Assembly: GCA_038040445.1 (NCBI GenBank)
Contig: JBBPIG010000003.1
Span: 1-64,000, forward strand
Reading direction: 5' to 3'
Length of the DNA: 64,000 nucleotides
DNA from: Acidobacteriota bacterium
GTDB lineage: Bacteria; Acidobacteriota; Blastocatellia; UBA7656
Part shown: piece by piece, positions 24,002-43,080 of the stretch
How the letters are laid out: every line of letters starts with the position of its first letter
Position numbering within the stretch: position 1 is the first letter of the stretch
The notes under the pieces: generated by a model
Database searches by the model: none
Seen by the model: only the letters and a program-made list of their open reading frames with translations
Told to the model about the DNA's origin: nothing
Translations under genes and position numbers: made by a program

Positions 24002-26305
24002 ATGAGACTCAAACTGGTAGTCGTCGCCATTTATGGGCTGTTGCTATTTCTGCCCGTCGGCTTCTCGATGCGCTCGCTGGCTTTTTCTGATAGCGACGAA
24101 CAGGGGCAGGGGAAAACTCAATTCACTCCGATCGCCTTCGATACGACCGGCAGAAGGGGTCTGGTCCTTTTCAACCACAAGACCCACGAAGCATTGCTTA
24201 ATCCCGATCCGAACTTTCCTCATAAAGCACCCGAGGGCGTCGCCTGCATCGGATGCCATCACTCGGTAAAAGAGGAAACCACCAGAGCTCAGTTTCAAAA
24301 GTGCACAGCTTGCCATAAGGACGAGGGCAATGCCACGAACCCGGACGATCGCGAAGGCTACGATCTGAACTCGCGAGAGGCTTTTCACCGGCTCTGCATC
24401 AGTTGCCATCGCGCTTCAAACCTCAAAGCCTCGAACGCTCGATTCCGCGACGTCGGGTTCACGAAGTGCGCCCAGTGCCACGACAATCAAGCTGAGCCTA
24501 TGCAGTTGGCCGCGCAGCCCGAAGTCGTTCCGCCGCCGGATGAAGAGCCTGAAGCGCCTCCGTCTCTTGGCAGACCAGTCGAGATCTTCACAACGCCCAT
24601 GGACCCGCCGCGAGGTTACGCTGGCGGCTCCCGCATAGACACTCCGACGCAGACGTCGCCTGATTCCATTCCGAGCCCGGACCGCTGGCGCATCGGTCTT
24701 CCGGAAGATCCCCGCTTTGAGCAAGGCAAGTGGTACAACCCCTATCGCCAGAACGTGCTCAAGGGCGATTATCCGATATACAAGCAGCAGAATTTTCTCG
24801 TACTGACTCTTGAGAGTGACACTCTTGCTATTTTTAGGCGGCTGCCTCTGCCGAGCGATATGAGCAGCGCGCGCCCCGACAGCGCGGAGTTCTTCGGCCG
24901 GGGCGTGAATGAGTTCTTCCGTCAGAACTTCACTCTGGGCATCGAATTCTTTAACGGCGATGCAGCGTTCAAGCCTATCAATTGGCGGTTCCGGTTCACA
25001 CCCAACTTCAATATCAACTATTTCAACACTCAGGAAAACGGCATCGTCAACATTGACGTTCGCAGACAGACGAATCGAACCGACAGCTACACGGGCTTCC
25101 AGGAGTTGTTCACCGAGTTCAAGATCGGAGACACAACCAAGCTCATGCCGTTCTTGCGCGGGGCAGGGAGCGACGGCGGCAAGAGTCCCTATTACGATTC
25201 AACCTTCATTCGCACAGGCATACAGCAGTTCATTAGCGATTTTCGCGGGTTCATCTTCAACGATTTCAACCTGGGTGCGCGGGTGTTTGGCCAATTCGCA
25301 AACAACCGATACAACTTCAACGCAGCCTATTTCCACCTGCTCGAGAAAGACACCAACAGCGAGTTGAACACCCGCGTCAACCTCAGCGAGTTCCGCAATC
25401 AGACGGTGTTCATCGCCAACCTCTTTCGCCAGGACACCAAGTGGAAAGGCTACACCACTCAGTTCAGCTTTCACTACAACAACGATCGACCGAGCAGGCA
25501 CTTCGACGAAAACGACTTCCTGGTTCGGCCCGGGTTGTTCGGCTCTGTCAGAGAGCACGGGATAAAAGCTTACTACCTTGGCTGGGCCGGCGATGGTCAC
25601 ATCGGCCTCAACAATATCTCGCACGCTTTTTATCAGGCGTTCGGCCACGACTCGTTCAATCAAATCGCAGGCAAGAGGACAAGCATCAACGCGCAACAGG
25701 CGGCAATCGAGTTGTCGCGTGACAGAGATTGGCTGCGGTACAAAGGATCGTTCTTCTTCGCATCGGGCGACAAGGAGCCGTTTGACGATAGGGCAACCGG
25801 CTTCGACGCGATTGTGGACATCCCTGAATTCGCCGGAGGGAAATTCAGCTACTGGAACAGCCAGGGCATTCGCCTGCTCGGCACCGGAGTCGGTTTGAAG
25901 AGTGGCGAGAGCCTGTTGCCTACCTTGCGCAGCAGCAAGTTTGAAGGACAGGCCAGCTTCGTCAATCCTGGAATCTTCCTATACAATCTGGGAATTGAAG
26001 CCGAGCTGACTCCGAAGCTTCGCGGCATAGCCAACATCAATTATCTGCACTTCCATCACACGGAGTCGTTGAAGGAAATCCTGTTTCAGCCGAATATCCG
26101 CAAGAGCATCGGATTCGACTACGGGGTCGGCGTCCTCTATCGGCCTTTCCTGACAGAGAACTGGATCATTCAGGGCGGGTTCTCATCGCTGATACCCGGA
26201 GCAGGGTTCAACGACATCTACACTTCAAATTGCACCGGACAGGGATGCGGGCAGCGGTCCAAGACTCTCTTTTCGTCATTCATACGCTTGAAGTTTACTT
26301 ACTGA
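24002..26305 (+). CDS. Tetrahaem cytochrome c fused to an outer-membrane beta-barrel
   Basis: A 767-residue protein with a signal peptide ('MRLKLVVVAIYGLLLFLPVG') and four CXXCH haem sites between about residues 80 and 162 (CIGCH, CTACH, CISCH, CAQCH), with extra His in 'FNHKTHE' for axial ligation. A Pro/Glu-rich linker follows (about 170-215). From about 245 to the end it has alternating amphipathic strands typical of an outer-membrane barrel, ending 'FIRLKFTY'. The cytochrome half is a paralogue of the free tetrahaem protein at 30542, down to the signal peptide. Porin-cytochrome conduits normally use separate barrel and cytochrome subunits; here both are in one chain. I start at ATG 24002; a GTG at 23990 would add only four residues. 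It is the first gene of the cytochrome cluster, 36 bp before the decahaem gene. Confidence 0.85.
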   Translation: MRLKLVVVAIYGLLLFLPVGFSMRSLAFSDSDEQGQGKTQFTPIAFDTTGRRGLVLFNHKTHEALLNPDPNFPHKAPEGVACIGCHHSVKEETTRAQFQKCTACHKDEGNATNPDDREGYDLNSREAFHRLCISCHRASNLKASNARFRDVGFTKCAQCHDNQAEPMQLAAQPEVVPPPDEEPEAPPSLGRPVEIFTTPMDPPRGYAGGSRIDTPTQTSPDSIPSPDRWRIGLPEDPRFEQGKWYNPYRQNVLKGDYPIYKQQNFLVLTLESDTLAIFRRLPLPSDMSSARPDSAEFFGRGVNEFFRQNFTLGIEFFNGDAAFKPINWRFRFTPNFNINYFNTQENGIVNIDVRRQTNRTDSYTGFQELFTEFKIGDTTKLMPFLRGAGSDGGKSPYYDSTFIRTGIQQFISDFRGFIFNDFNLGARVFGQFANNRYNFNAAYFHLLEKDTNSELNTRVNLSEFRNQTVFIANLFRQDTKWKGYTTQFSFHYNNDRPSRHFDENDFLVRPGLFGSVREHGIKAYYLGWAGDGHIGLNNISHAFYQAFGHDSFNQIAGKRTSINAQQAAIELSRDRDWLRYKGSFFFASGDKEPFDDRATGFDAIVDIPEFAGGKFSYWNSQGIRLLGTGVGLKSGESLLPTLRSSKFEGQASFVNPGIFLYNLGIEAELTPKLRGIANINYLHFHHTESLKEILFQPNIRKSIGFDYGVGVLYRPFLTENWIIQGGFSSLIPGAGFNDIYTSNCTGQGCGQRSKTLFSSFIRLKFTY

Positions 26306-26341
26306 TCTCGATCAGCATCGTGTACGCGCCGGGAGATCCGA

Positions 26342-29300
26342 ATGAAAGTATCGAAAAATGCGCTCAAGCTTCTGTTGATCCTCGTGATCGTCGGCCTCTA
26401 CGGATTCTTCGTTCTTGCAGGCTCGATGACGAAGGCAGACTCGTCGAAGCGGCCGGCTGATTCGAACGGGGCCGACGCCTCCACACAGAATCCGCCAGCA
26501 ACGCAAACGGCGCGGCCGGTCCAGGCGGCCGGGCTGTTCGGCGAAAGCCCGGAAGAAGCCATGCGCCGAAGCGTAGGCTGCATCGATTGCCACAAAGGCA
26601 TAGAAGATATGCACAACGGGGTGATCAGCCTCGGCTGCATCGATTGTCACGGAGGAGATGCGAACGCTCGTGCGCAGGGCACGCAGAAAGGATCTGCCGG
26701 ATACGAGGGCGCTAAGAAAGCAGCGCACGTTAAGCCACGATTCCCCGACCGGTGGAAGACGTCTGCTAACCCTGAACGCCCTTACTCTCTCACGCTTGAA
26801 GAGAGCCCTGAGTTCATCCGGTTCGTGAATCCTGGCGACCTGCGCGTGGCGCAACTGAGCTGCGGCACAACGGAATGCCACTCCGGCGACGTGCATAATG
26901 TGAAGAAGAGCATGATGGCGACGGGCGCGATGCTCTGGGGCGCGGCGCTCTACAATAACGGAGCGTTCCCGTTCAAGAATTACAGATTCGGCGAAAGCTA
27001 CGGGCCGGATGGTAAGCCTCAGAGACTGCAGACCGCTCCGCAGCCCACCGCGGAAGAGACGCAAAAGAAAGGCATTCTCGCGTACCTTGAACCGCTCCCG
27101 CGCTGGGAGATGTCCCAGATGAGCAACATCCTGCGCACGTTTGAGCTTGGCGGGCGCAAGGCTGCTGAGATCGGGATTCCCTCTATCGAAGAGCCGCCCG
27201 GAAAACCGACGCAGAATCTATTGAGCCCGCGAGGACTTGGAACGAACCTGAGAACCGACCCGGTTTACATTGGCCTGCAAAAGACTCGCTTGCTCGATCC
27301 GATGCTGTCCTTCATGGGAACGAACGATCAGCCGGGAGATTACCGTTCGAGCGGCTGCACTGCTTGTCACGTCGTCTACGCGAACAACCGCAATCCATTT
27401 GAAGCAGGACCGTATGCGGCGCACGGCCACACGGGCGAAAGCGCGAGCGCCGATCCGACTATTCCAAGGGGCGAGCCCGGTCACCCCATCAAGCATCAGT
27501 TCACCAGGGCTATTCCATCAAGCCAGTGCGTAGTATGTCACATGCACCCGGGAACAACTGTGCTGAATTCTTACTTCGGCTCGATGTGGTGGGACCTCGA
27601 GACTGACGGCGAAGAGATGTACCCAAAGGAAGAAAAGAAACTCAGCGCCGAGCAACGCCGCGAGATTATTTTGCGCAACCCCGAAGAGTCCGCGCTTAGA
27701 GGCAAGTGGGGCGACGTCGAGTTCTTGAAATCGATTCGGGATGAAGTTAATCCGAAGCTCAAACACACCCAGTTTGCAGACTTCAACGGGCACGGATGGG
27801 TCTACCGCTACGTTTTCAAACATGATCGGAAAGGGAACCTGCTCGACGCCGGCAACAACGTCATCGCTGACGTAACCAATGAAAAGCTGCAGCGCGCAGT
27901 GAATGAGCCTGTTGGCGATGGTTCTTCGCGGGAGGGCGTGCCGGTTCACCTGAAGGACATTCACGAAGAGAAGGGGATGCACTGCGTGGATTGTCACTTT
28001 AAGCAGGACAATCATGGCGACGGAAAGCTCTACGGTGAAGTGCGCGCCGCTATCGAGATTGATTGCATTGACTGTCACGGGACGATTACCAAGCGGGCAG
28101 ATCCGACTTCGCGAGATGCATTGACCACTGCAGCCGCGGGCGGCAATCGCATGCTCGACTACCGGAATCTTCCTTCGCGCAAGGATCGGTTCTTCAAGAA
28201 GGACGGTAAACTGTTTCAGCGCGGGGCGGTCGCGAAAGACCAAGAAGGCAAGCCGCTCGTCTGGGAAGTAAGGCAGGTGATGGATAGCATCACGCCCGGA
28301 AACGAGCACTACAACGAGAAGGCCGCGCTCGCCAAGACGATTCTCAAGGACGGAAAGACCTGGGGCAGTGCGCCGAAGGATGACGTTCAGCTTGCGCACG
28401 CAAACAAGAGCATGACCTGCTTCACCTGTCATACCTCGTGGACGCCGAGTTGTTTCGGCTGTCACCTGAAGCAGACGGCGAACCAGCAGAAGCCGATGCT
28501 GCACAACGAAGGAACGGAGTCGCTGCGCAACTACTCGTCTTACAACTTCCAGACCTTGCGCGACGACGTCTTCTTGTTGGGTAAGGACGGCACGGTGACC
28601 GGACGGCGGGTGGCGCCGGTGCGTTCCGCCTGCGCGGTTTTTGTAAGCTCTCAGAATGCGAATCGCGAGTGGATTTACTCGCAACAGCAGACGGTCTCCG
28701 CGGAGGGATACAGCGGCATATCTTTCAGCTCGCACTTCCCGCATACCGTGCGAACGACCGAGACCAAAGGCTGCGCCGATTGTCACCTCTCTGAAAACAA
28801 CGATAACAATGCGTACATGGCAATGGCCCTGATGCAGGGAACCAACTTCTATAACTTCATCGGGCGATTCATGTACGTGGCGCAGAAAGAACACGGCTTT
28901 GAGGCAGTTGTCGTCACCGAGCGCGACGAGCCGCAAGCGGTCATCGGAAGCTCTTTGCACAAGCTGGCTTTCCCTGAGGAATACAAGAAGCATTTAGAGC
29001 TTAAGAAGGAACTGGAGGAGTTTTACGAGCATCCGGGCAACGACGTTGGCACGAACCTCACGCTATTCAAGAAGGAGAAGACCGAAGTCTTGATGCTGCA
29101 GCACCGAGGCGAGTTTCTATACGCGGCGACCGGCGAGGGCGGCCTCAGAGTCTACGATATAGCCAACGTGGATCAGAAGGCCTTCTCGGAGCGAATAACC
29201 ACGGCCCCGTTCTCGCCTCTCGGGCAGCGGCTCTATGTCAAAACGAAGTACGCGACCGCGGTGGCCACACCGTCGACCACAGCCGTCGATCCTACACGTA

Positions 29301-30475
29301 AGCACTATCCGCAGAACGAGGAATGGGAGAACCGCGACGACAAGCAGGGGATAAATCTGATTTATGCGTTCCTCTACGTCGCGGACAAGTATGAGGGGTT
29401 GGTCCTCGTAAATGTGGCCACGCTGCTGGATGGGAATCCGAGGAATAATTTCCTCAAGCGGGCGCTCACCTGGAACCCGAACGGAATTCTGAACGGAGCT
29501 AACAACATCACGGTTGCAGGCTCCCACGCCTACATAACCTGTGACCGAGGCCTGGTGGTCGTCAATATAAGCGACCCGCTCAAGCCTCGCGTTGTCGGCG
29601 AATTCGGCGCGCCGTTCATAAAGAACGCGCGAGCTGTTCAGGTGCAGTTCCGGTATGCGTTCGTGACCGACTCGGAAGGCTTGAAAGTCGTCGACGTGAC
29701 CAATCCTGATAGTGGGCGCGCGGTGAGCGGCGCAGTCGTGCCTCTTTCGGATGCTCATAATCTGTATCTGGTGCGCACCTACGCATACGTGGCGGCCGGT
29801 AAGCAGGGGCTGGCGATCATCGACATAGAGAATCCCGAGAAGCCCCGCCTCGATCAGATCTTCAACGGCGAAGGCGACATCAAAGACGCGCGCGACGTCA
29901 AGGTCGGCATGACGAATGTGAGCCTTTTCGCCTATATTGCCGACGGCGAGCACCATGCCATGCACGTCGTTCAACTGACTTCGGCCGAGCAGCCGGACAA
30001 CTATGGCTTCAGCCCGCGCCCGCGGCCTGAGCTTATCGCGAGCAAAGAGACGCTCGGCCCCGCGCTATCGATCTCGGAAGGCGTGGATCGCGACCGCGCG
30101 GTGGACGAGAGCGGCAACCAACTGTCCGTTTTCGGGCGCAGGGGCGCGAGGCCCTTCAACGCGGCCGAAATGCAGCGAATGTACATGATCAACGGCGCTA
30201 TGTTCACGGTTCCCAACATCAAGGACGGAAACAAGAAGGAGAACAAGGACATTCGCCGGTTCTTCGGCGCGCCAAAGACCTCGGACGGGGCGACCACCGA
30301 TTCGACGCCGAAGGTTGAACGCAAGAACGCGGATGAGACGAAGTCCGGGCAATCGAACGAGCCGAAGAGCCCCGCGAAGGAAGCGCGGATGCGTAACGCC
30401 GCCCAGTTGTCGAGCCTCGCCTTTATGTCATTGCCGCTCGCAGCCGTGTTGTTCCGGCGACGCAGACGACGATGA
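26342..30475 (+). CDS. Decahaem cytochrome c with LVIVD beta-propeller and C-terminal anchor
   Basis: A 1377-residue exported protein, the largest of the cluster. An N-terminal signal anchor ('[18 protein letters not shown]') is followed by nine CXXCH sites (CIDCH twice, CTACH, CVVCH, CVDCH, CIDCH, CFTCH, CFGCH, CADCH) spread over about residues 78-820. One further CX4CH site, C-G-T-T-E-C-H, lies near residue 180. The C-terminal third (about 920-1220) has LVIVD-type propeller repeats ('[11 protein letters not shown]', '[16 protein letters not shown]', '[12 protein letters not shown]', '[14 protein letters not shown]'). The chain ends with a short hydrophobic segment and six Arg ('[17 protein letters not shown]'), like C-terminal sorting or anchoring signals of the MYXO-CTERM/GlyGly-CTERM kind. 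I infer a surface-exposed electron carrier tethered to the envelope. Haem binding by the CX4CH site is unproven. Confidence 0.88.
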
Positions 30476-30541
30476 TGTGGTGTTGGCAATGAGCGGACGT
30501 TTAACGGCGAGGCAACGCTTGAAGTTGACGGAGAAGATTAG

Positions 30542-31060
30542 ATGAGACTGAAGCTGGCTGTTCTTATCACTTACGCGCTGGGCGTGGCGTTGCCCGTGGC
30601 TTTCGGCGCCGGGCTGTTCGCTAAGGCGGCCGAGCAACAGACAGAAAGCGGTTATGCGCCGAAGGTGATCAGGCTTGACGAGAAGGGAAGACGCGGCGTG
30701 GTCTTCTTCGATCACAAAGGCCACGAATCGCGCCTAAGCCCGGACTCGAATGCGCCACATCCGGCAAAGAAAGGGGCCGCGTGCTCCGGTTGCCATCACT
30801 CGATTAGCTCGAGGGGAATCCCGCAGTTGTACAAGTGCAACGTGTGCCATCACCGGAAGGACGGCGATCCGCGTAACCCAAAGAATCGAGAGTTCGATGA
30901 GGTGATGGCCGAAAGGGCATTTCACGATAGTTGTATCGAATGCCACAGGGTGGCCGAGAAGGGGCCCACGACATGCAGCGGCTGTCATAAGGCGGGAGTT
31001 CAGCCCGGCACTCTCGGCACAATAAGGGCGCTCGATAGTCAAGCTGGGAGCAACGATTAA
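30542..31060 (+). CDS. Periplasmic tetrahaem cytochrome c (class III-like)
   Basis: A 172-residue protein with a signal peptide ('MRLKLAVLITYALGVALPVA') and four CXXCH motifs (CSGCH, CNVCH, CIECH, CSGCH), two of them CXXCHH. It aligns along its whole length with the cytochrome part of the barrel fusion at 24002: shared 'GRRGVVFFDHKGHE'-type sequence, 'CSGCHHS' and 'AFHDSCIECHR'. The small size suits a soluble periplasmic shuttle between inner- and outer-membrane modules. It is separated from the decahaem gene by 66 bp and followed by a palindrome. Confidence 0.92.
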   Translation: MRLKLAVLITYALGVALPVAFGAGLFAKAAEQQTESGYAPKVIRLDEKGRRGVVFFDHKGHESRLSPDSNAPHPAKKGAACSGCHHSISSRGIPQLYKCNVCHHRKDGDPRNPKNREFDEVMAERAFHDSCIECHRVAEKGPTTCSGCHKAGVQPGTLGTIRALDSQAGSND

Positions 31061-31074
31061 GTTCAGAGTTCTAA

Positions 31075-31181: not shown

Positions 31182-32150
31182 TTGGCGATGTTGCGAGTCA
31201 AAAAGAGCATCTTCGCTTTGGCCTGCTTTCTGGCGGCGGGAATATACTTTGGGTTCCCGTCTCACGCAGAAGACGACGCCGCTGCGGCCAACGCCCAACG
31301 GCCGAGACGAGTCGGCGGCGAGCGCGCCACTTTCGATCACAAGCGAAAAGATCACGCCAAGGTCACTTGCAACGTCTGTCATCGGGTGACGCCGCAACAG
31401 ATGGAAGTCGTGTCGTTCCCGGCCCATCCGACGTGCGTCAGTTGTCACAACTTCGCCCAGGAGTTCTTCAAAAGGGGGGTCGCCTTCTGCGGCGTCTGTC
31501 ATCAGGGCGGGCCGACTTCAAAGATGAGTTCTGCGCTATTCGACTTCAAAGAGAAGACGAATAAGCTCCACGCCGTCCTCGGAAGCGATTTCGGCATAGA
31601 CTTTTCGCATCCGGCTCATCGTAAACCGCTGCCGGAGGATTTTGTGTTTCGGCCGGTCACTACGATCCCGTCTGACGCACCGCAGACCAAGCTTACCGCC
31701 GGGCAAACTGCCCGATGCACTGATTGTCATCAGAGGATCAAGAAGGCGAACGCCGGCGAAAATGAAATGACGATCGAGAAGGGCCACTCGACTTGCTTCC
31801 AGTGTCACGGCATCAAGCCCGATACCGCCGCTCGAGAAAAATTCCCGTACATGAACGACTGCAAAGAGTGCCACGAGATTGGCGGCCCAAAGGCTACGCA
31901 CCTGGCCTCGATTCGCGACTTCAGCCACGCCGACCACGAGTATGACATTCGCCCAAGAAGAAAAGTCGATTACCAAGTGAAGCGATCACCAGACTTTCTG
32001 TGCGCCGAGTGTCACAAGTCCGTGGACCAGGCGAAGAAACTTACGGACATACGGATGCCTGAAGAGACCACTTGTGGAGCATGTCACAGCGGCCGGTTAG
32101 GGCTCCCCGACGCTTTGGCTCGTGATGTATTGGATAAGCTGAGACAGTAG
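31182..32150 (+). CDS. Periplasmic octahaem cytochrome c
   Basis: A 322-residue exported protein with signal sequence 'SIFALACFLAAGIYFGFPSHA' shortened by cleavage after Ala. It has eight CXXCH motifs (CNVCH, CVSCH, CGVCH, CTDCH, CFQCH, CKECH, CAECH, CGACH). Additional His residues in 'ATFDHKRKDHAK', 'IDFSHPAHRK' and 'RDFSHADHEYD' are likely distal ligands, a pattern of cytochrome c7/class III-type multihaem carriers. Start choice: GGAGG (31172-31176) lies 5 bp from TTG 31182 and 11 bp from ATG 31188; I keep the TTG but either is possible. It is followed after 23 bp by the nonahaem lipoprotein gene. Its role is inferred as a periplasmic electron bridge. Confidence 0.88.
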   Translation: MAMLRVKKSIFALACFLAAGIYFGFPSHAEDDAAAANAQRPRRVGGERATFDHKRKDHAKVTCNVCHRVTPQQMEVVSFPAHPTCVSCHNFAQEFFKRGVAFCGVCHQGGPTSKMSSALFDFKEKTNKLHAVLGSDFGIDFSHPAHRKPLPEDFVFRPVTTIPSDAPQTKLTAGQTARCTDCHQRIKKANAGENEMTIEKGHSTCFQCHGIKPDTAAREKFPYMNDCKECHEIGGPKATHLASIRDFSHADHEYDIRPRRKVDYQVKRSPDFLCAECHKSVDQAKKLTDIRMPEETTCGACHSGRLGLPDALARDVLDKLRQ

Positions 32151-33263: not shown

Positions 33264-33284
33264 CTTTGTCGCCGGGTGAGCCGT

Positions 33285-35723
33285 ATGCCGAAAGAACAAA
33301 AGAGCCGTCGCGAAGTCATTAATGCGATCAAGACCCTTCCAGCCATCTCTGCTCTTATGTCCGCGCACGACGGTCACTACGACTATGAGCTCGATCTCGA
33401 AGTCACGGTATACGGGCGCAACTACGGTGGCAAGAAGGTAGGTCCCTACTTCCGCCTGCTGAACTATGAGCCCGGAGAGGCGGTTATGGTTCAGGGGGAA
33501 TGGGGCGGCAACACCTTGTTCTTCCTCGTCGCCGGCGCTCTGGAAGTCTACGTCCGGGCGCCCAACGAGCAAGACGTGAAAGTCGCGGAGTTGACGCCGG
33601 GCACTCAGTTCGGAGAGATGAGCGTGCTGGCGGGCGTTCCTCGCAACGCCACTATCAAAGCGCCGCCGGACAAGCCCGCCCAGGTCCTCGAGATTCACCG
33701 CCCGGCGTTGCGTCTGCTTCGCAAGCTCCCCAAGTTTGGCGAGAACCTCGACAACACATATCGAACTCACGGCAGAGATGCCGCGCTTGAAAGCCTCAGA
33801 CTCACCGGCGGGCTGACCCCCGAAATGACGAGCGAGCTGCGGGGTTATTCCTTGTTCCGGGTGTTCGCGAAAAACCATGTCCTTTTCCGCGAGAATGAGC
33901 GAGTCAATCGAGTCTACATCATTAAGGAGGGATGGGCGCGCCGGACGCAATCAGTGTCAGGCAGAGAGGTCGAAGACTTCGTGGGTCACGGCTTCTGCTT
34001 TGGTCTCGAAGGCGCTGTGAAAGATTCAAGCTGGCCTTACACCGTGACGCTGATGGGCCGCACTGAAGTCGTTGAAATATACACCTCGAAACTGCGTGAG
34101 AGACATGCGCTCAGAGAAGCGCTGCTCAAAGTGCTCGGCACCAGTGTGCCACCCGCAATCGGCTCTTTTGTTAACTACAAGCCTGCTGTTCACGACGCGA
34201 TGCTCGCCGCTCAGGAGAGGCTCATCGAGACGGGGCTCGTGGACGGAACCAATCTGCTGGTGATGGACATGGACCTGTGTGTTCGCTGCGGCAATTGCTC
34301 GCTCGCGTGCCACAAGATTCACGGCCAATCCAGACTCATGCGCAGAGGCGTTCACGTCACCCGCCTTGAAGCCCCTCGCGCGAGTGCCGTTCAAAGCGTG
34401 CTTTCGCCCGAGGTCTGCATGCATTGCGCGGATCCCGAATGCTTGACCGGCTGCCCGACCGGGGCGATCGGCCGATTCGATCTGGGTCAGGTCGATATCG
34501 ATCCCAAGACGTGCATCGGATGCGGCGACTGCGCGACCCAGTGTCCTTACAACGCGATATCGCTGGTCCCGCGCAGACCGAAAGCCCCTGCTCCAGGCGC
34601 CGTCAGTTTCAAATCGAAGCTTCAGGAATTCCTGAGAATCAAACCCGATCCGATTCCGCCGCCGGTTGACACTACCGAAGACCTCGTTGCGATCAAATGC
34701 AACCTGTGCAGCGACCGCACGTCGATGAACCCTCCGGGCGCAAAGACCCGAGCGTACAGTTGTGAAGAGAACTGCCCCACGGGAGCGCTCGCGCGCGTCA
34801 GGCCGCGAGAATATTTCACCGAGATCGGCCAGATCGAAGGCTTGCTGCTGGTCGATAAGACTCATGCCTACGGGCGTAACATACACAAGTCCGATCCGCC
34901 GAAACGCTTGATTCATTTGGCAGGCATATTGTTCACCGTGCTGGCGACCGCCGCAACAATCTTCGGACTACAGCAATATGGACTGGGCGAGCGCATCTTC
35001 AGCTTCCTGAACATGCGCTGGATCACGGGCATAGCCGGCCTCGTTGGAATCGCGGCGGTGATGACTTATCCGGTGAGGCGGCAGATCTACACCAAGCGCG
35101 TAGGGCCGCTGCGCTATTGGATGCTGGCGCACGCTTATGTGGGAATAATCGCGGGGATGTTGATCCTGCTGCACGGCGGCACTCATTCCGGGGGCGCGCT
35201 CACCACTGCGCTAATGGTCTGCTACGATCTGGTCATCTTCACTGGCATACTGGGAATCTTTATCTACTTTTTCGCGCCTCGAAAGCTCACGAAGATTGAA
35301 GGCACGCCGCTCCTGATCGATGATCTAAAAGACCGGCGCGAGGAGTTGCGGAAGGAGATTGCGGAGATCGGCGGCCAGGCAGCCGGACCGCTTCAAAGCA
35401 TCGTGAAGGACAAAGTGGTGCCGCGTTTTGTCTCGTTCGGTTTTCTGTTGCGGCAGTTTCTCGGCCGAAAAGATCTGGACGAGATGGTTGAATCAGCAAA
35501 GGCGGGATTCAACCAGGAGCGGGCAAGTCTGGCGAACGAGAAAGACCGGCACAAGTTGGATCGCGCCATCGAAGCCGCCGCGACGCTGCGCCGAATTGAC
35601 GCGTTGATCTATCTGCATCGCTCGTTGAAAGTGTGGCTGCCGCCGCACGTGGCGACCACTGCCTTGATGCTGGCGTTGATGATCGTTCACATCATACAAG
35701 TTGTTTACTATGCCGCGCGGTAG
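33285..35723 (+). CDS. cNMP-binding, four-cluster Fe-S and cytochrome b-like membrane fusion protein
   Basis: An 812-residue protein in three parts. (1) Two cyclic-nucleotide-binding folds: the first (about 50-145) keeps a full phosphate-binding cassette 'FGEMSVLAGVPRNAT'; the second (about 185-285) has lost the Arg-Ala part ('FGLEGAVKDSSWPYT'). (2) A DMSO-reductase-B/HybA-like electron-transfer domain (about 330-500) with four Cys groups: CVRCGNCSLACH, CMHCADPECLTGCP, CIGCGDCATQCP and CNLC...CEENCP. (3) About five membrane helices (from about 542) with His suited to b-haem ligation in 'LAHAYVGIIAGMLILLHGG' and 'HVATTALMLALMIVHIIQ'. Start ATG 33285 has GGGTGA at ideal distance. I infer a quinol- or ferredoxin-linked electron entry gate responsive to a cyclic nucleotide. 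No signal peptide, so the sensors and clusters are cytoplasmic. Confidence 0.87.
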   Translation: MPKEQKSRREVINAIKTLPAISALMSAHDGHYDYELDLEVTVYGRNYGGKKVGPYFRLLNYEPGEAVMVQGEWGGNTLFFLVAGALEVYVRAPNEQDVKVAELTPGTQFGEMSVLAGVPRNATIKAPPDKPAQVLEIHRPALRLLRKLPKFGENLDNTYRTHGRDAALESLRLTGGLTPEMTSELRGYSLFRVFAKNHVLFRENERVNRVYIIKEGWARRTQSVSGREVEDFVGHGFCFGLEGAVKDSSWPYTVTLMGRTEVVEIYTSKLRERHALREALLKVLGTSVPPAIGSFVNYKPAVHDAMLAAQERLIETGLVDGTNLLVMDMDLCVRCGNCSLACHKIHGQSRLMRRGVHVTRLEAPRASAVQSVLSPEVCMHCADPECLTGCPTGAIGRFDLGQVDIDPKTCIGCGDCATQCPYNAISLVPRRPKAPAPGAVSFKSKLQEFLRIKPDPIPPPVDTTEDLVAIKCNLCSDRTSMNPPGAKTRAYSCEENCPTGALARVRPREYFTEIGQIEGLLLVDKTHAYGRNIHKSDPPKRLIHLAGILFTVLATAATIFGLQQYGLGERIFSFLNMRWITGIAGLVGIAAVMTYPVRRQIYTKRVGPLRYWMLAHAYVGIIAGMLILLHGGTHSGGALTTALMVCYDLVIFTGILGIFIYFFAPRKLTKIEGTPLLIDDLKDRREELRKEIAEIGGQAAGPLQSIVKDKVVPRFVSFGFLLRQFLGRKDLDEMVESAKAGFNQERASLANEKDRHKLDRAIEAAATLRRIDALIYLHRSLKVWLPPHVATTALMLALMIVHIIQVVYYAAR

Positions 35724-35772: not shown

Positions 35773-38700
35773 ATGGCTACTAAGAGTCGTTTCATCATAA
35801 AGCGAAGAGACAAGTCGGTCGACGACATCCTCCTCGAAAGTGAAGGGCTGACCATCGGCCGGCTTACCGGCAATGACCTGGCGCTCAATAACCGCGCGGT
35901 CTCTCGCACCCACGCCGGGATAAGAGAGTTCAACGGCGAGTACTGGATCTTCAATCTGTCTGAATCAAACGGCACCGTGCTCAACGGCTGGCTCGTGGAC
36001 AAGACGCCGCTGTTGGACGGCGATGTTATTCAGATAGGTCCGTACTCTCTGCTGGCCAATTACGCTCAGGGGGCGTTGTCGCTCACTGTCCAGATAGATA
36101 CCGAAATCCATCCGGTCGAGGGCGGCGCGACCCGCATGCTGTTTGAAGAGGATCTGGGCAAGACGGTGATGGTTCAGATTCCCGCGGGCGTCAAGAAGCA
36201 GGCGGTTGCGCCCGGCGGCACCGAGAGATTTCAATTGGGAACGGGCCTGTTCAGCGCGGTGCCACCCGCGCTTGATCAGCAGGCGCTCAACGTTTTCTGG
36301 GACAAGCGAAAAAGAGAGGCGGGAAAGATTGCTCCGCAAAGCCTGCTTCATCCGAGAACCAACAAGAAAGTCGGCAAAGCGCAATTCAACTGGCGTCCCT
36401 CCCTCGATCTGCGGCGAATCTGGCGCAAGTCATATTTTTACTGGGGCGCCGGCGTTGTCGCGCTGCTCTCTATCATCGCAGTGATTATCTACGAGAACGC
36501 TTATTCGCCGGGCCCGGTCTCGTTGGCTCATACCTCGTCGCAGATGTCTGCCCGCGCGATTGCCCTAAAGCCAAATGAAAACTCCTGCTCGAATTGTCAT
36601 GGCGTGAGCGAAGGCATGCAGGACAAGTGCGTCACTTGTCATACGACGCCGGCAAATCAAACGGCGCCGGCATTCCTACCCGTCGTCTTCGACAAGCACG
36701 CTCGCGAAAACATCGGCTGCACGGGTTGCCATGTCGAGCACAGAGGCGCGAGCTCCGACTTTGGACTCAAGAGCAACCAGCTTTGCTCGAACTGCCATAA
36801 CGGGAGCTACACCATCAAGACCGGCGACAAGACGGGACAGGCCTTGCCCGTCGCACACGGCGGCACGGTAGGCTATCCGGTGACCAACGGCAAGTGGGCT
36901 AAAATGCTGGATGCCGATCAACTTCGGGTGAGGGACCTCCCCGACACATGGGCGGGGCCAACCTTTGATTCAAATCGCCAGTTCCACTCCATTCATCAAC
37001 TCGGCCGGATGAACAACCGGATGAGCTGCAAAGACTGCCACACCTCAGGGGTGCGCGGTGAAGCGAGCTTCCGCGACTCGCCGAAGGCCGAGTGCGCTAA
37101 GTGCCACGACCTCGTCGCCGGCGCGACAGGCACGCAACGCGTCCAGGCGAATTGCTACACGTGCCATCGGCAGCACGGACGCAGCGAAGACCTGTTGCAG
37201 CTTGTGGCTGAGGCAAAAGACGATCGGAGGATCAAAGAATACTTCAACAAAATCGATAGCGGCAAAGATGAAGTCGGCAAGCGATTGGCGACGGCCAGCG
37301 AGAATCTGTTTTCGGGTGTTGGCGGCGCAGACCAGATCCGCCAGGACAAAGACACTCTGAGCGCGACCGTGCTTTCATCCTTCGGCGGGTTGCCGTGGTA
37401 TGGTTGGGTCGGACTGGTCGGAATCCTGCCGATTGCGGGTCTCGCGGTGATGGCGGTTGGAACCGTGCGCCGCAAATACTCCTTGCAGAATGTAAAAGCG
37501 GACGCCGCGCCGAACGAGAACGAGGTAGCAAGAGCGCTCACAGGCGTGCTCGATCTGGAGAAGCTGAAAGCCGAGGAGGCTCCGTATCCGCATCCGGTCA
37601 TAAACCAGGCGACCTGCATAGGCTGTCACGCTTGCGTGGAAGCCTGTCCGCACGACGTGCTTGCGATAGTCAACGGCGTCTCAACGCCCATCAATCCCGA
37701 TCAGTGCATGGAAGACACCAGTTGCCAGGTCGAGTGCCCCACTAATCCGAAGTCGTGCGTCGTCATCAACACCAAGAAGAAAATCCCAGAGAGAAAAGTC
37801 CCGAAGCGAGACCAGCGATTCAAGACCAATGTCGAAGGTATCTACCTGATCGGAGATGTGTCCGGCGTTCCTCTGATCAAGAACGCGATCAACGAGGGCG
37901 GCACGGTCATCGATTCCATTGCCGAAGACATCAAGAAAGAAGGCGCCAACGGCAAAGCTGAGTACGATGTCGCGGTCGTCGGCATCGGACCGGCGGGGTT
38001 GTCGGCTGCGGTTATTGCCAAACAACGCGGTTTGAAATACATCGCCATCGAGCAAGACAAGATAGTGGCCACCATCCAACAGGTCTATCCCGCGGGCAAG
38101 TATGTTTTCTTCAAACCCGACACAGTTGAGACGAAAGGCGGCATCCCGCTCCCGGGCCCCGGCGACTCGAAAGAGAACATGCTCAAGGGCTGGCTCGGTG
38201 CGATGATGTCGAACGGCGTCGTCATCAACGAAGAGGAAAGCTGCAAAGACATAAAACCGGAAGACGGGGTCTTCACCCTCACAACCGAGAAGGGAAAAGC
38301 CAAAGAGAAAGCCACCTACAAGGCTCGCAAGATCATCATCGCGATCGGCAATCGCGGCACGCCAATGAAGCTTCGAGTGCCGGGCGAGGACCTCAAGGTG
38401 ATGATGACGCCGCCGCCCATAATCCCAAAGTTCTGCCCGGGCTGCGGGTCGGGCCGCAAAGGCGCGCAGCAGTTCTGCGTCGTGTGCGGCGCGCCGTATC
38501 CGGTCAAGAATCAGCCCGCTTACGAAACGGGCAAAGTTCAATTCAAGCTCTCCGACCCCGATGACTACGTAAACAAGAAATGCATAATCGTGGGGGCAGG
38601 GAATTCGTCCATAGAATCCGCGGTTGATCTGGCCGGACTCAAGCGCGACGGCGAAAAAATCACTTTCACCCGCAACAACGATGTGACCCTGGTCGTCCGC

Positions 38701-38943
38701 AGCGATTTCAAGGGGGACCTCAAGCTTGGCAACAAGATGAACGTCTACGACTGCATTGACGCCGGGAAGATCAAGGTCTTCTTCCGAACCGAGATCAAAG
38801 AAATCACACAAAACGAAGTCGTGCTTATGGATGTGCGAAGCAAGGAAGAGAAAGCGCGGCTCGCCAACGATTTTGTGTTTGCGCTGATTGGCGGCGAGAA
38901 GCCGACGAAGTTTTTAGAGGGGTTGGGGATCAAAGTAGGATGA
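35773..38943 (+). CDS. FHA-heptahaem cytochrome c-ferredoxin-flavin reductase fusion
   Basis: A 1056-residue single chain. Residues of about 1-100 form an FHA phosphopeptide-binding domain ('IGRLTGNDL', 'SRTHAGI', 'SESNGTVLNG'). A transmembrane helix (about 222-241) leads to a periplasmic segment with seven CXXCH sites (about 272-465: CSNCH, CVTCH, CTGCH, CSNCH, CKDCH, CAKCH, CYTCH), and a second helix (about 541-563) returns to the cytoplasm. There follow a ferredoxin domain (CIGCHACVEACP at about 615, then a second Cys group), a segment with 'VEGIYLIGDVSG', and a YpdA-like FAD/NAD(P) oxidoreductase (FAD motif 'VVGIGPAGLSAA' about 733, NAD motif 'IIVGAGNSSIES' about 937). A CPGCG...CVVCG zinc ribbon (about 888-905) is inserted. 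Topology permits electrons from NAD(P)H to cross to periplasmic haems, or the reverse. The GDVSG segment normally follows the NAD domain, so the flavin fold looks circularly permuted. Confidence 0.85.
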   Translation: MATKSRFIIKRRDKSVDDILLESEGLTIGRLTGNDLALNNRAVSRTHAGIREFNGEYWIFNLSESNGTVLNGWLVDKTPLLDGDVIQIGPYSLLANYAQGALSLTVQIDTEIHPVEGGATRMLFEEDLGKTVMVQIPAGVKKQAVAPGGTERFQLGTGLFSAVPPALDQQALNVFWDKRKREAGKIAPQSLLHPRTNKKVGKAQFNWRPSLDLRRIWRKSYFYWGAGVVALLSIIAVIIYENAYSPGPVSLAHTSSQMSARAIALKPNENSCSNCHGVSEGMQDKCVTCHTTPANQTAPAFLPVVFDKHARENIGCTGCHVEHRGASSDFGLKSNQLCSNCHNGSYTIKTGDKTGQALPVAHGGTVGYPVTNGKWAKMLDADQLRVRDLPDTWAGPTFDSNRQFHSIHQLGRMNNRMSCKDCHTSGVRGEASFRDSPKAECAKCHDLVAGATGTQRVQANCYTCHRQHGRSEDLLQLVAEAKDDRRIKEYFNKIDSGKDEVGKRLATASENLFSGVGGADQIRQDKDTLSATVLSSFGGLPWYGWVGLVGILPIAGLAVMAVGTVRRKYSLQNVKADAAPNENEVARALTGVLDLEKLKAEEAPYPHPVINQATCIGCHACVEACPHDVLAIVNGVSTPINPDQCMEDTSCQVECPTNPKSCVVINTKKKIPERKVPKRDQRFKTNVEGIYLIGDVSGVPLIKNAINEGGTVIDSIAEDIKKEGANGKAEYDVAVVGIGPAGLSAAVIAKQRGLKYIAIEQDKIVATIQQVYPAGKYVFFKPDTVETKGGIPLPGPGDSKENMLKGWLGAMMSNGVVINEEESCKDIKPEDGVFTLTTEKGKAKEKATYKARKIIIAIGNRGTPMKLRVPGEDLKVMMTPPPIIPKFCPGCGSGRKGAQQFCVVCGAPYPVKNQPAYETGKVQFKLSDPDDYVNKKCIIVGAGNSSIESAVDLAGLKRDGEKITFTRNNDVTLVVRSDFKGDLKLGNKMNVYDCIDAGKIKVFFRTEIKEITQNEVVLMDVRSKEEKARLANDFVFALIGGEKPTKFLEGLGIKVG

Positions 38944-38955
38944 GCAAAGCCAAGC

Positions 38956-39070
38956 CATTTTCCATTTTTCATTGCGATTTTCCATTTGTCATTTTCAATT
39001 CAGCTCAAAGGGTCAAGGAACCAGGGATTGAAATGGCAAATGGAAAATCGCAAATGGAAATTGGAAAATG
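38956..39070. repeat. AT-rich palindrome of TTTCCATT-like units
   Basis: Left arm 38956-38997 (CATTTTCCATTTTTCATTGC...) and right arm 39030-39070 (...GCAAATGGAAATTGGAAAAT) pair imperfectly, and each arm is itself built of short ATTTTCC-like units. It begins 12 bp after the stop of the FHA-cytochrome gene and its composition is far more AT-rich than the surroundings. Confidence 0.85.
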
Positions 39071-39110
39071 ATTGCAAAGACCAGAATTTCACATGTCCCA
39101 TTGAGCTCGG

Positions 39111-39119
39111 TGCTATAGT
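39111..39119 (+). promoter_or_regulatory. Possible extended -10 promoter of the phosphodiesterase-cyclase pair
   Basis: TGCTATAGT (39111-39119) matches an extended -10 element (TGn plus TATAGT) 38 bp upstream of the GTG at 39158. No good -35 is present. Confidence 0.35.
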
Positions 39120-39157
39120 ATCTGAGGTCGAGGGCCCGACAGACGGAGGCAACGCGC

Positions 39158-39928
39158 GTGAGAATCAGACTTCTGCCGAGCAGCGCCGGACGCCAGTCGC
39201 AACTCCAGTGTTTGACCTCATTCATCATCGACGAACGAGTGGCGATTGACGCGGGCAGCATAGGGTTCGCGTTCTCTCCGGGTGAGATCGGCACCGTCCG
39301 CCATATCATCGTCACCCACTCGCACAGCGATCACACCGCTTCCTTGCCGATATACGTAGCCGAAGCATTCAATGTGCTCAACGATCCAATCATCATCTAC
39401 GGCAGTATTGAAGTGATAACAGTGCTCAGGCAACACGTCTTCAACGATCACGTGTGGCCGGACTTCGAAAAGATTCAGCTCAACAACGGCAGCGGACCCA
39501 CGGTTGAATTTCGCGAGCTCGAGGCGAGACAGACATTGAACATCGCCGGCATTGACGTGACGCCGATTCCGGTCAATCACCTCGTACCGACTTTCGGGTT
39601 GCTGGCGCAGAACGAAGTGGCAGCCGTGCTGTTCACTTCCGACACCTATAGCACCGACGAAATTTGGGAGGTGGCGCGGGAGGCTGTGCACTTGAAAGCA
39701 GTCTTTGTCGACGTTTCGTTTCCGAATGAGATGGGCGAGCTGGCTGCGGCGTCGAAGCACCTTACGCCGGAGTTGTTGGCCGTTGAGTTGAAGAAGCTCA
39801 AGCGCGAGGTTGAGGTTTATGCGGTCCACATCAAGCCGACGAACCGTGAAGAGGTGATAAAGCAAATCGCTGCGCTCGACAATCCAAGGGTTTCGGTCGG
39901 CGAAATTGACCGCGTTTATGAGTGGTAA
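39158..39928 (+). CDS. Metallo-beta-lactamase-fold protein, class II cAMP phosphodiesterase-like
   Basis: A 256-residue cytoplasmic protein with the metal site 'VTHSHSDHTASLPIYVAEAF' (about 51-70), a second His in 'VNHLVPTFG' and 'FTSDTY' later on. The stretch around HxHxDH with following Thr/Ala-Ser-Leu resembles class II cyclic-nucleotide phosphodiesterases (yeast PDE1/CpdP) more than lactamases or RNase Z, and the insert 'RQHVFNDHVWPDF' fits that family. The GTG start has GGAGG 9 bp upstream. It lies 12 bp before the nucleotidyl cyclase gene, so one transcript would carry both the synthesising and the degrading enzyme. RNase Z-like or other MBL hydrolase activity cannot be excluded. Confidence 0.75.
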   Translation: MRIRLLPSSAGRQSQLQCLTSFIIDERVAIDAGSIGFAFSPGEIGTVRHIIVTHSHSDHTASLPIYVAEAFNVLNDPIIIYGSIEVITVLRQHVFNDHVWPDFEKIQLNNGSGPTVEFRELEARQTLNIAGIDVTPIPVNHLVPTFGLLAQNEVAAVLFTSDTYSTDEIWEVAREAVHLKAVFVDVSFPNEMGELAAASKHLTPELLAVELKKLKREVEVYAVHIKPTNREEVIKQIAALDNPRVSVGEIDRVYEW

Positions 39929-39940
39929 CGGACGGGGAGT

Positions 39941-41584
39941 ATGCCTGCAAAGATTGTCATTAAGAATTCCGAATCTGGGCACTCGTTTGAGTTCGATCTC
40001 ACGCGAGATGAGACCCAAATTGGGCGCTCTGCCGATAACAACGACGTCGTGCTTGAGGAGAGCCAGGTCTCGCGTCAGCACGCAGTAATCAAACGGAACC
40101 GCCAGGCTTTTACGCTCGTCGATCTGAACAGCGCTAACGGCACGTTCATGAACGGGCAGCGCGTTAAAGAGCACCTGCTGCGAAACGGCGACTCGTTTTC
40201 GATAAGCAAGTTCACGGTCGAATTCAAAGATGCTGCGGAGTCGCCTTCGGTCAGGTACTCGAGCCGCGAGATCGAAGGTACGATGGTGATGCGAACCCCT
40301 AGCGAAATAATGTCGGTCATCCCGCGGATGGACAAGTCGGCGATATCTCAGGCTGACCCGGGTGCGAAATCCGTTTTGGGTTACGTCGAGGTGCTGAGGA
40401 AGAAGGCCGAGACGCTGGCGCGCATTTACGAGCTGAACCAGATGCTCGGGTCGGACTTCTCTCAGGAGGACATATTCAGGAAGGTCAGCGAGATGGTCTT
40501 TCGCTTGACACCGGCGGATCGCTTCCTGGTGTTGCTGAAGGATTCGGATAGCGGCGAGCTATCGACCGTCGCCGCCGAGTTCCGCAACCCCGGCAGTGCG
40601 CAGGCGGGCGCCCAGGTCACCATCAGCAAGACGGTCGTGGATCGTGTGATCACCGAGCGGATTTCGGTGCTGTCGTTCGACACGCTCTCGGACCAGCGCT
40701 TCGTGGAGGCCAAGTCAATCGTGATGCAAAACATCTCTTCGGTGATGTGCGCACCGCTGCTCAGAAAGAACGATGTACTGGGAGTCATTTATGTTGATTG
40801 CCAGGAGACGATGAAACTGCTCAGAGAAGACGACCTCGATCTGTTGAATGCGGTGGCGGCTGAGACGTCTATCGCCGTGGACAACGCTCTGACTCACAAG
40901 CGGCTGGTTCGCGAAGAACTCGCGCGCGCGAAGTACCGCCGCTTCATGCCGCCTCACGTCGTCGACGAGATTCTTAAGAGCCCCAACACGCTTCTCCTCG
41001 GCGGGACAAACAGCTGCATAACGGCGCTGTTTTCCGACATTCGCGGCTTCACCTCTATGTCCGAGAAGTTGAAGCCTCAGGTCGTGGTTCAGATCCTCAA
41101 CGAGTATTTCGCGGACATGACCCCCATTGTTTTCGACCACCAGGGACTGCTGGACAAGTTCATGGGAGACGGGTTGATGGCGCTGTTCGGAGTCCCATAC
41201 GCCTGTGACGCTGCGGCGTCGAATGCCGTGGCTGCGGCGATTGCGATGCAGCGCCGGATGACTATGGTGAATGACGACCTGAGAGCGTTGGGGCTGTCGG
41301 AGATCGCCATCGGAATCGGTGTCAACACGGGAACCGCGACGGTCGGCTACATCGGATCCAGGGATCGAACTGACTATACAGCGATCGGCGACGCCGTGAA
41401 CCTCGCCGCTCGGCTTGAGAAACGAGCAGGCGCCGGGCAAATAATAATTAGCCGCTTCACGTTTGAAGCGATAGGCGACGGATTTGCGGTGAAACCGTGC
41501 GATCAGATAATGGTCAAGGGTAAGCAGGAACCCGTTCAAATATACGAGGTGCTCTGGCAAGAAGCTAGCGAGTCGCCGGGTTAG
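39941..41584 (+). CDS. FHA-GAF-class III adenylate/guanylate cyclase
   Basis: A 547-residue cytoplasmic signalling enzyme. An FHA domain (about 1-95: 'IGRSADNNDVVL', 'SRQHAVI', 'NSANGTFMNG') is followed by a GAF domain (about 155-315, ending 'AAETSIAVDNA') and a class III cyclase domain (about 345-545). The metal-binding Asp pair is present in 'FSDIRGFTSM' and 'KFMGDGLMALFG'. The purine-specifying positions are Lys in 'LDKFMGD' and Thr in 'DYTAIGDAVNLAAR', which points to ATP, hence cAMP. The transition-state Asn and Arg of 'AVNLAARLE' are intact. Its FHA domain suggests input from a Ser/Thr kinase (none is encoded here); GAF could sense a ligand. Its stop overlaps the convergent MscS gene by 4 bp. 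Confidence 0.92.
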   Translation: MPAKIVIKNSESGHSFEFDLTRDETQIGRSADNNDVVLEESQVSRQHAVIKRNRQAFTLVDLNSANGTFMNGQRVKEHLLRNGDSFSISKFTVEFKDAAESPSVRYSSREIEGTMVMRTPSEIMSVIPRMDKSAISQADPGAKSVLGYVEVLRKKAETLARIYELNQMLGSDFSQEDIFRKVSEMVFRLTPADRFLVLLKDSDSGELSTVAAEFRNPGSAQAGAQVTISKTVVDRVITERISVLSFDTLSDQRFVEAKSIVMQNISSVMCAPLLRKNDVLGVIYVDCQETMKLLREDDLDLLNAVAAETSIAVDNALTHKRLVREELARAKYRRFMPPHVVDEILKSPNTLLLGGTNSCITALFSDIRGFTSMSEKLKPQVVVQILNEYFADMTPIVFDHQGLLDKFMGDGLMALFGVPYACDAAASNAVAAAIAMQRRMTMVNDDLRALGLSEIAIGIGVNTGTATVGYIGSRDRTDYTAIGDAVNLAARLEKRAGAGQIIISRFTFEAIGDGFAVKPCDQIMVKGKQEPVQIYEVLWQEASESPG

Positions 41585-42972
41585 CTCAGGCCGAAGAACC
41601 GCTGGATGCGCCGAAGAATGGCATTCCTCTGAACGTGCTTCTCCTGTTCCGGCACCGCGCGGGCGTACTCATCGAGTCGTGTCTGACGCTCCGCTATCAT
41701 GAGGCTGAGCCCTTCGGCCAGCGCGGCGTTGTCGTCCAGCAGCCGCTGTAGAATCCCTTTGGTGATCTCGAGAGTCTCGACTTCGTTGACCGCAATCACA
41801 TCTGCGTTCCTCGGCTCACCCGTTAGCAGGGCCATTTCTCCAAAGAAGTTTCCCGGCTTAAGCTCCGCCACTTGTTGTGCGTGACCGTCGCCGCTTGGTA
41901 GCCGCACTTCAACGTTGCCACGATAGATGACAAACATTGAATCGCCCGGAGCGCCGCGCCGCAGTATCAACTCGCCGGGAGCATATACGGCCTTGATGGC
42001 CGACCGCGCTACGGCCTCTTTCTCCTCGGCTGAGAGCGGCGCGAAGATTTCTACCGACCCGATGACCTTGTCGTAAGCGTCTTCTTGAGGCGTGACCAGC
42101 GGTTCCTGCTGCTCGAGCAAAACGTGGCGAATGGGGAAAGGAATCTCGATATCGTTGCGCCGATAGATGTACCACATGTGCTGTCTTATCGCAGCATCGA
42201 TATCGTGAATCCACAGGTAGTCTTTGACCCAGTAGAGAATCTCGTAGACGATGCTCGAGTCTCCGAAGTCGCCCATTCGAACGACCGGCGTCCTCTCGCT
42301 GGCCACGTTGGGGATCGATGCCACTGTTTCCCGTATCAGTCTGATGACTTTCTGCGGCGGGATGCGGTAGGGCGCTGGGACGCGCAGGATTCGCCGGTTC
42401 AGATTGTTGAAGCGGAAAACCTCCAGCGGCTCGCGCGCAACTTTGCTGTTGGGGAAAATGATTGTCGTGTTGTCGTTGGTTCGGATGGTAGTAGTGCGCC
42501 AGGTGAGCGCTTCGACTCGCCCGAGCATGTCCTGGATTCGAATAGCGTCGAGGACGTGAAACGGCTGTTCGATGTGTATCGACAGCCCGGCAAAAAAGTT
42601 CCCCAGCGTGTCCTGAAGCGCAAGTCCGATGATGACCGAGAAAATAGTAGACCCCGCGACGAACCCCAATCCGCCGCCTTCCGGTTTCCAGACCAATCTG
42701 TAGATCAGCAGAAAGAAGACCAAATAAAGCACCACTGATAGAAGGACGCGCAACAGTTGAGGCGCATCGCGGCCGCTGCGCCGCTTAAAGACGACGTCGA
42801 ACAGCACGACCCCGATCGCCCGTACGAGCGCCATGCTCAACACGGCAAGCATAGCAGTGAGCAGGTATATCGAGACGTTCGGGCTGATCAGGCCGGGCCT
42901 TAGCCACTCGATAGCGGCGTATACGAGAAGTAGCAGCAGGCTAATGGTAAGCGGAAGGGTTATTCGCTTCAT
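41581..42972 (-). CDS. MscS-family mechanosensitive channel with C-terminal cNMP-binding domain
   Basis: A 463-residue inner-membrane protein. Four N-terminal hydrophobic segments (for example 'TLPLTISLLLLLVYAAIEWL') lead into the MscS pore helix and beta domain ('VIIGLALQDTLGNFFAGLSI', 'EQPFHVLDAIRI', 'FPNSKVA'). The last 150 residues are a cyclic-nucleotide-binding fold with an intact phosphate cassette 'FFGEMALLTGEPRNADV'. Related cyclic-nucleotide-gated MscS channels (bCNG) are known; gating by cAMP is therefore plausible. The frame extends to a TTG at 43011, but ATG 42972 starts cleanly before the first helix. It faces the cyclase gene tail to tail with a 4-bp overlap. Confidence 0.92.
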   Translation of the reverse strand: MKRITLPLTISLLLLLVYAAIEWLRPGLISPNVSIYLLTAMLAVLSMALVRAIGVVLFDVVFKRRSGRDAPQLLRVLLSVVLYLVFFLLIYRLVWKPEGGGLGFVAGSTIFSVIIGLALQDTLGNFFAGLSIHIEQPFHVLDAIRIQDMLGRVEALTWRTTTIRTNDNTTIIFPNSKVAREPLEVFRFNNLNRRILRVPAPYRIPPQKVIRLIRETVASIPNVASERTPVVRMGDFGDSSIVYEILYWVKDYLWIHDIDAAIRQHMWYIYRRNDIEIPFPIRHVLLEQQEPLVTPQEDAYDKVIGSVEIFAPLSAEEKEAVARSAIKAVYAPGELILRRGAPGDSMFVIYRGNVEVRLPSGDGHAQQVAELKPGNFFGEMALLTGEPRNADVIAVNEVETLEITKGILQRLLDDNAALAEGLSLMIAERQTRLDEYARAVPEQEKHVQRNAILRRIQRFFGLS

Positions 42973-43080
42973 TGCTCGTGAATGGTACTGCGGCCCAAGC
43001 TCAAAGGCCAAGCGTAGCGCGTGGCTTGCTTCTAAGGTACCTATCGGGCGGAAACAGGCCGCCGCGGCCGGCGCGGCGTT

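Follow-up and report, generated by a model that had tools for sequence, protein, structure and literature searches.

Cyclic-nucleotide-binding and FHA domains on the inner-membrane entry proteins of a predicted multihaem electron conduit in Acidobacteriota

Gene content of the locus

The window examined here comprises 64,000 nucleotides (positions 1 to 64,000 of contig JBBPIG010000003.1, assembly GCA_038040445.1) from an Acidobacteriota bacterium of the class Blastocatellia, and between positions 24002 and 43011 it carries a block of ten genes (g1–g10, Table 1) that the initial annotation read as a multihaem electron conduit controlled by cyclic AMP (cAMP). All ten genes were recovered at their positions with domains scoring above the Pfam curated cut-offs, and the claim that both inner-membrane electron-transfer proteins bear sensory domains was likewise borne out: g6 has two cNMP_binding matches and g7 an FHA domain, and both are kept across the class. 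It is highly probable that the locus encodes a conserved conduit whose electron-entry proteins are fitted with sensors.

Table 1. Features at and near the predicted conduit, in window coordinates
Feature	Position	Strand	Description
g1	23990..26305	+	predicted outer-membrane beta-barrel with N-terminal four-haem domain; ATG at 24002
g2	26342..30475	+	exported nine-haem protein with LVIVD repeats; C-terminal hydrophobic stretch and RRRRRR (sorting-signal-like)
g3	30542..31060	+	predicted periplasmic four-haem class III type cytochrome (Pfam, CXXCH count)
g4	31182..32150	+	predicted periplasmic eight-haem c7-type cytochrome (Pfam, CXXCH count)
g5	32174..33067	+	nine-haem c7-type cytochrome with lipobox IGGLAC; probably a lipoprotein
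g6	33276..35723	+	two cyclic-nucleotide-binding (CNB) domains, four-[4Fe-4S] ferredoxin, dihaem cytochrome b; predicted inner membrane; ATG at 33285
g7	35773..38943	+	FHA, transmembrane helix, seven-haem periplasmic domain, transmembrane helix, 2[4Fe-4S], YpdA-like FAD/NAD(P)H domain
g8	39158..39928	+	metallo-beta-lactamase (MBL)-fold, class II cAMP phosphodiesterase-like; lineage-specific neighbour
g9	39941..41584	+	FHA-GAF-class III adenylate cyclase; lineage-specific neighbour
g10	41581..43011	-	MscS channel with C-terminal CNB (MS_channel and cNMP_binding); judged outside the system
u3	14710..16743	-	exported double HbpS-like protein (E value 4.9e-20); two genes lie between it and the conduit here

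The g6 protein has no signal peptide, matches cNMP_binding (E value 1.3e-28) and Fer4_7 (2.9e-11) in Pfam, and is modelled by AlphaFold with a mean predicted local distance difference test (pLDDT) score of 80. Its 16 cysteines are invariant and are arranged as in four-cluster ferredoxins of the NrfC/DmsB type, and two histidine pairs in the membrane helices (H619/H633 and H791/H805, each 14 residues apart) are invariant where present, as in dihaem cytochromes b. In these respects g6 resembles FdnH/FdnI and the NrfC/DmsB-type proteins; it differs from them in having no catalytic molybdenum subunit, in its fusion to CNB domains and in its partner, a haem/flavin adenine dinucleotide (FAD) protein. 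That partner, g7, matches FHA (2.6e-13), Pyr_redox_3 (7.5e-32), Cytochrome_C7 and Fer4, has transmembrane helices at residues 221–239 and 546–564, and carries a FAD domain closest to the bacillithiol disulfide reductase YpdA. Because of the hydropathy profile, and because the haems must be periplasmic, we infer a topology that would place the sensors and the FAD domain inside the cell.

In g1, a signal sequence, an aromatic C-terminal residue and a Cytochrom_CIII match (1.8e-8) are joined to about 18 strands that the AlphaFold model folds into a barrel over residues 262–770, for which the best Foldseek matches are AlgE and the Occ porins (E value 4e-14). The protein is conserved in an alignment of 15 relatives and is assigned, at moderate model confidence, as an outer-membrane beta-barrel. 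The g2 protein has an export signal and an LVIVD match of 6.7e-21, its identity across the phylum is 42–74%, and its C-terminal tail, of a kind present in many g2 relatives, looks like a surface-sorting signal. Cytochrome domains of the CIII and C7 types were found by Pfam in the exported proteins of the locus.

The earlier figure of 42 c haems corresponds to a correct count of CXXCH strings in g1–g7 (4+9+4+8+9+8, with none in g6), but not all of these are haem sites. The eighth string of g7 is CIGCH at residue 615, within the CX2CX2CX3C motif of the C-terminal ferredoxin, and in relatives with a split g7 the FHA-haem half has seven haem motifs, the iron-sulfur (FeS)-FAD protein no more than one such string. 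For both reasons, the predicted c-haem count is 41 and the 42nd motif belongs to the ferredoxin. No tRNA or Rfam element was detected within the 64-kb window, and promoter and terminator scans of it gave results near chance.

Conservation and recurrence of the sensor fusions

Gene neighbourhoods were compared across 80 loci from public genomes together with 12 whole-genome neighbourhoods. In every Blastocatellia locus with enough sequence (56/56), g7 lies directly downstream of g6, as one protein like that of the window in 12 loci, as separate FHA-haem and FeS-FAD proteins in 34, and with the first part alone seen in 10. Across 147 genomes of the class, g6 is present in 69 and g2 in 73, with both in 67, a single one in 2 and 6, respectively, and neither in 72 (Fisher value 5e-32, a descriptive figure that ignores relatedness). 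This association is not mere linkage, since in Chloracidobacterium g6-g7 lie on contig C1 and g1-g2 on contig C2, which are different chromosomes. Moreover, the FAD domain, which in the window is part of the haem/FHA protein, belongs to the CNB protein in other families and stands alone in Pyrinomonadaceae; such swapping of fusion partners between lineages is a standard indication of parts that make up a single complex.

Outside Blastocatellia, g2 was found in 15 genomes. In all ten of those with contigs long enough to judge, a CNB redox protein is encoded within ~10 kb of g1-g2, against an expectation of ~0.7 of ten from genome-wide CNB density; three further contigs are too short to judge. 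In G008 and G367, the other two of the 12 loci on contigs over 15 kb (10/12 overall), none was seen, and there the contig stops a short way from g1 or g2. The architectures vary. Six outside-class loci encode a FAD-CNB-CNB-FeS protein, cytochrome b as a protein of its own, and a ten-haem protein bearing one or two FHA domains; four others have a CNB-CNB-CNB-FeS protein with a ten-haem protein nearby, and cytochrome b was detected in two of these. Relatives of g6 in Myxococcota and related proteobacteria (28% identity) are CNB-CNB-FeS proteins next to or near FHAx3-FAD proteins. Two such proteins of the Myxococcota type, each combining three FHA domains with haem motifs and a FAD domain, lie at L124:3321-7298 and L125:5925-9479 beside or near CNB-CNB-FeS proteins. 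Variation also occurs within the class, with the triple-CNB form in G212 and, in both G132 and G221, an NDH2-type dehydrogenase that bears a CNB at its C-terminus. The latter, a canonical CNB on an NADH dehydrogenase beside the conduit (L131:2360-3994 and L132:10850-12508), is a candidate cyclic-nucleotide-controlled respiratory enzyme.

Are these CNB domains equipped to bind a ligand? The nearest solved relatives of the g6 CNB region are the regulatory CNB tandems of PKA and PKG, which match better than Crp-type regulators. The phosphate-binding cassette of the first domain, CNB1 (FGEMSVLAGVPRNAT), retains Glu114 in 86 and Arg123 in 85 of 88 sequences (~97%) and predicts cyclic-nucleotide binding, whereas the second domain, CNB2, has lost the nucleotide-binding Glu/Arg, with no Arg at that position. 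Among the alternative architectures, both CNBs of the FAD-CNB-CNB form are usually canonical, as are two of three in the triple-CNB form and the CNB of the NDH2-type protein; G071 has no canonical cassette. The FHA domain of the window's g7 has its Gly-Arg, Ser-x-x-His and Asn-Gly motifs complete, and among 71 g7 relatives G29 is kept in 71, S44 in 68, N71 in 70 and the phosphate-contacting Arg30 in 52. Because g6 and g7 are paired, g6 and g2 co-occur, varied CNB architectures stand beside g1-g2 and the CNB1 Glu and Arg are kept, the fusion of sensors to electron entry appears to be a recurrent and selected feature.

Proposed function and competing explanations

The locus resembles the MtrCAB system of Shewanella and the Pcc systems of Geobacter in having a barrel, periplasmic and exported multihaem cytochromes, and a quinone-linked inner-membrane input. 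It differs from them in that its four-haem domain is fused to the barrel and its input proteins bear CNB and FHA domains, and also in sequence, such that the locus would work like a porin-cytochrome conduit while falling outside the Mtr and Pcc families. At the inner membrane, g6-g7 would link the quinone pool to periplasmic haems, as do CymA, CbcL/MtrH/MtoC and ImcH, and CbcL also has a cytochrome b part. Those families are multihaem c cytochromes (PMC6295460). In contrast, g6 contains no CXXCH and so is not a multihaem c cytochrome carrying a quinone site; it has four [4Fe-4S] clusters, a dihaem cytochrome b and two CNB domains, and the c haems are in g7. Canonical CNB domains fused to an effector, through which a cyclic nucleotide acts directly on protein activity, are found in the PKA R subunit, PKG, Epac, SthK and the mycobacterial acetyltransferase Pat, but the effector of g6 is a membrane electron-transfer protein, and we know of no other case of such a fusion.

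How might such an assembly operate? Electrons from menaquinol (through cytochrome b) and/or NAD(P)H (through the FAD domain) would enter g6-g7 and pass from the g7 haems to g5, g4 and g3 and then to g1 and g2 on the outside, or the reverse, as sequence does not tell the direction. Binding of cAMP to CNB1 and of a phosphothreonine partner to the FHA domain would switch g6-g7 between conducting states, with CNB2 as a degenerate second fold. The FHA-GAF cyclase would make cAMP and the MBL phosphodiesterase would remove it, acting from adjacent genes in this lineage and in trans elsewhere. We consider it reasonably probable that the locus is a trans-envelope conduit in which the binding of cAMP and phosphothreonine gates the entry complex at the inner membrane; direct gating by cAMP, taken singly, is favoured slightly less firmly. 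More tentative, and just short of an even case, is the broader proposal that cAMP and phosphothreonine directly open and close electron flow and that such a device arose on several occasions in Acidobacteriota, each time through attachment of CNB and FHA domains to different subunits. The initial annotation had argued for post-translational control from the lack of a nearby transcription factor, which is weak logic given at least five Crp/Fnr-like proteins elsewhere in the genome; the direct fusion of sensors to carriers is the better argument.

Several observations weigh against gated electron flow through such a conduit. The co-occurrence statistics treat related genomes as independent, and the g1 model has a mean pLDDT of 54, its strands being fairly confident and its N-terminal haem domain not. 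Neither the g1 barrel nor full-length g2 has a Pfam, NCBIfam or PDB match to MtrB, MtrA, MtrC or the Geobacter Pcc proteins, weak generic cytochrome-domain matches being the only ones found. G009, L068 and G051b have another residue in place of the CNB1 Arg, His in the case of G009, a relative from the same family, and the FHA Arg30 is replaced in 19 of 71 g7 relatives (about a quarter); for these two reasons sensing, as predicted from binding residues, is not universal among relatives. The cyclase and MBL genes are absent from most conduit neighbourhoods, so that conserved neighbourhoods without the cyclase, phosphodiesterase and MscS genes, named beforehand by the initial annotation as telling against it, are what most relatives show. 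Finally, a g9-like cyclase occurs in 131 of the 147 class genomes, about as commonly without the conduit as with it.

These replacements, together with the degenerate CNB2 and a cyclase whose presence does not track the conduit, are what would be expected if the CNB and FHA domains were docking or assembly modules, or bound some other ligand, with no cAMP control and with the cyclase and phosphodiesterase as unrelated neighbours. We regard this explanation as unlikely, though it keeps some weight. A scaffold would not need the cassette Glu and Arg, which are nevertheless kept in ~97% of the 88 sequences and in the other fusions, and CNB2 of the same proteins shows how relaxation looks. Cyclase linkage is also above chance. 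Class III cyclases are rare, only 1–6 in each genome examined, yet 9 of 19 genomes have one no more than ~16 kb from g2, a set whose choice was partly guided by cyclase proximity; the cleaner figure comes from the ten outside-class genomes, of which three have a cyclase near g2 against 0.2 expected (P about 0.001). In all, a cyclase is found near the conduit in six families.

A second explanation, to which we give a similarly low probability, is that the locus encodes an envelope redox or haem-handling system rather than an extracellular conduit, for example an oxidative-stress defence in aerobic soil bacteria. The YpdA likeness of g7, the HbpS-like companion u3 and the lack of full-length similarity to known MtrC-type surface cytochromes would fit this explanation; however, 41 predicted haems across exported proteins, a barrel fused to a four-haem domain, and the large exported g2 with its haems and sorting-like tail suit a trans-envelope wire better. 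That ordinary cytochrome and signalling genes came together here by accident, as the many relatives without g8–g10 beside the conduit might suggest, is very improbable as an account of the whole: it holds for g10 and is already contradicted for g1–g7 by the g6-g7 pairing, the g6-g2 co-occurrence and the CNB/FHA fusions recurring beside g1-g2 in other families.

Known control of extracellular electron transfer acts on transcription, and in Shewanella cAMP-CRP affects it in this way. The present locus would share with that system a tie between cAMP and extracellular electron transfer, but carries its predicted sensor on the electron-transfer protein. In the open-access literature, to which the search was confined, no paper was found that combines an FHA domain with multiheme proteins or that combines CNB, c-type cytochrome, 4Fe-4S and cAMP, and nothing relevant was found on LVIVD with cytochromes. 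The Chloracidobacterium genome paper makes no mention of these proteins (PMC8245765). The CNB and FHA sensors look like a real and undescribed control on electron flow, which would be categorically new only if gating is proven. In that event, a fast, direct, ligand-operated switch on electron carriers would introduce a new principle to bacterial bioenergetics, would explain the large multihaem gene sets of Acidobacteriota, which are abundant in soil and whose cultured Blastocatellia are mostly aerobic, and would offer cAMP as a handle for switching bio-electrodes. With one CNB domain, one conserved Arg and one predicted effect, the comparison already opens the question to experiment.

Neighbouring genes

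The HbpS-like gene u3 is a conserved companion overlooked by the initial annotation, a similar gene standing beside g1/g2 in many relatives in Blastocatellia and other classes. Between u3 and the conduit in the window, a gene at 20854-23589 (minus strand) encodes a caspase-fold (Peptidase C14) protein with a PEGA domain, and similar genes occur near other conduits (L073, L133). In G384, two proteins with 23 and 22 CXXCH motifs are encoded some kilobases upstream of a g1-g2 conduit (L155:4207-8100).

By its sequence g8 is a predicted class II cAMP phosphodiesterase, with a PDEase_II score of 66.8 bits (cut-off 23.7), an HSHSDH string that fits the HxHxDH metal motif, and yeast PDE1 as closest solved structure (E value 3.6e-6); it scores 27.9 bits against a cut-off of 400 for the NCBIfam equivalog of cyclic nucleotide-degrading phosphodiesterases. 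The g9 protein has the order FHA-GAF-Guanylate_cyc (Guanylate_cyc E value 1.7e-26) and the residues predicted for a class III adenylate cyclase, namely metal-binding D366 and D410, adenine-specifying K406 (with T480) and transition-state N487 and R491; its closest solved cyclases are 2w01, CyaB and the CyaC-type 1wc0.

The initial view that both genes belong to the system stands in part. The MBL-cyclase pair adjoins the conduit in families f1 (window, G200, G203), f4 (G132, G221) and f69 (G205), and in the two f4 genomes the MBL-adjacent cyclase is the only one in the genome. A dedicated partnership of g9 with the conduit was rejected on presence and absence, with no association across the 147 genomes (Fisher p 0.29); judged from its relatives, g9 is the general, near-universal cyclase of the class. 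In G063a and L097, the weaker cyclase-like matches in the vicinity of g6 are without the catalytic residues (QSNRKR) and were not counted, and the gene upstream in L126 is FHA-DUF4388 and so not a cyclase.

Membership of the MscS-CNB channel g10, also proposed initially, was dropped: none was found by the conduit in the relatives examined, and the ortholog in G203 is on another contig (L150), beside pentose-phosphate genes. In the window, the channel gene is followed by OpcA, G6PDH and two 6-phosphogluconate dehydrogenase (6PGD) genes (41581-50838), and the order MscS-OpcA-G6PDH-6PGD is kept in G203.

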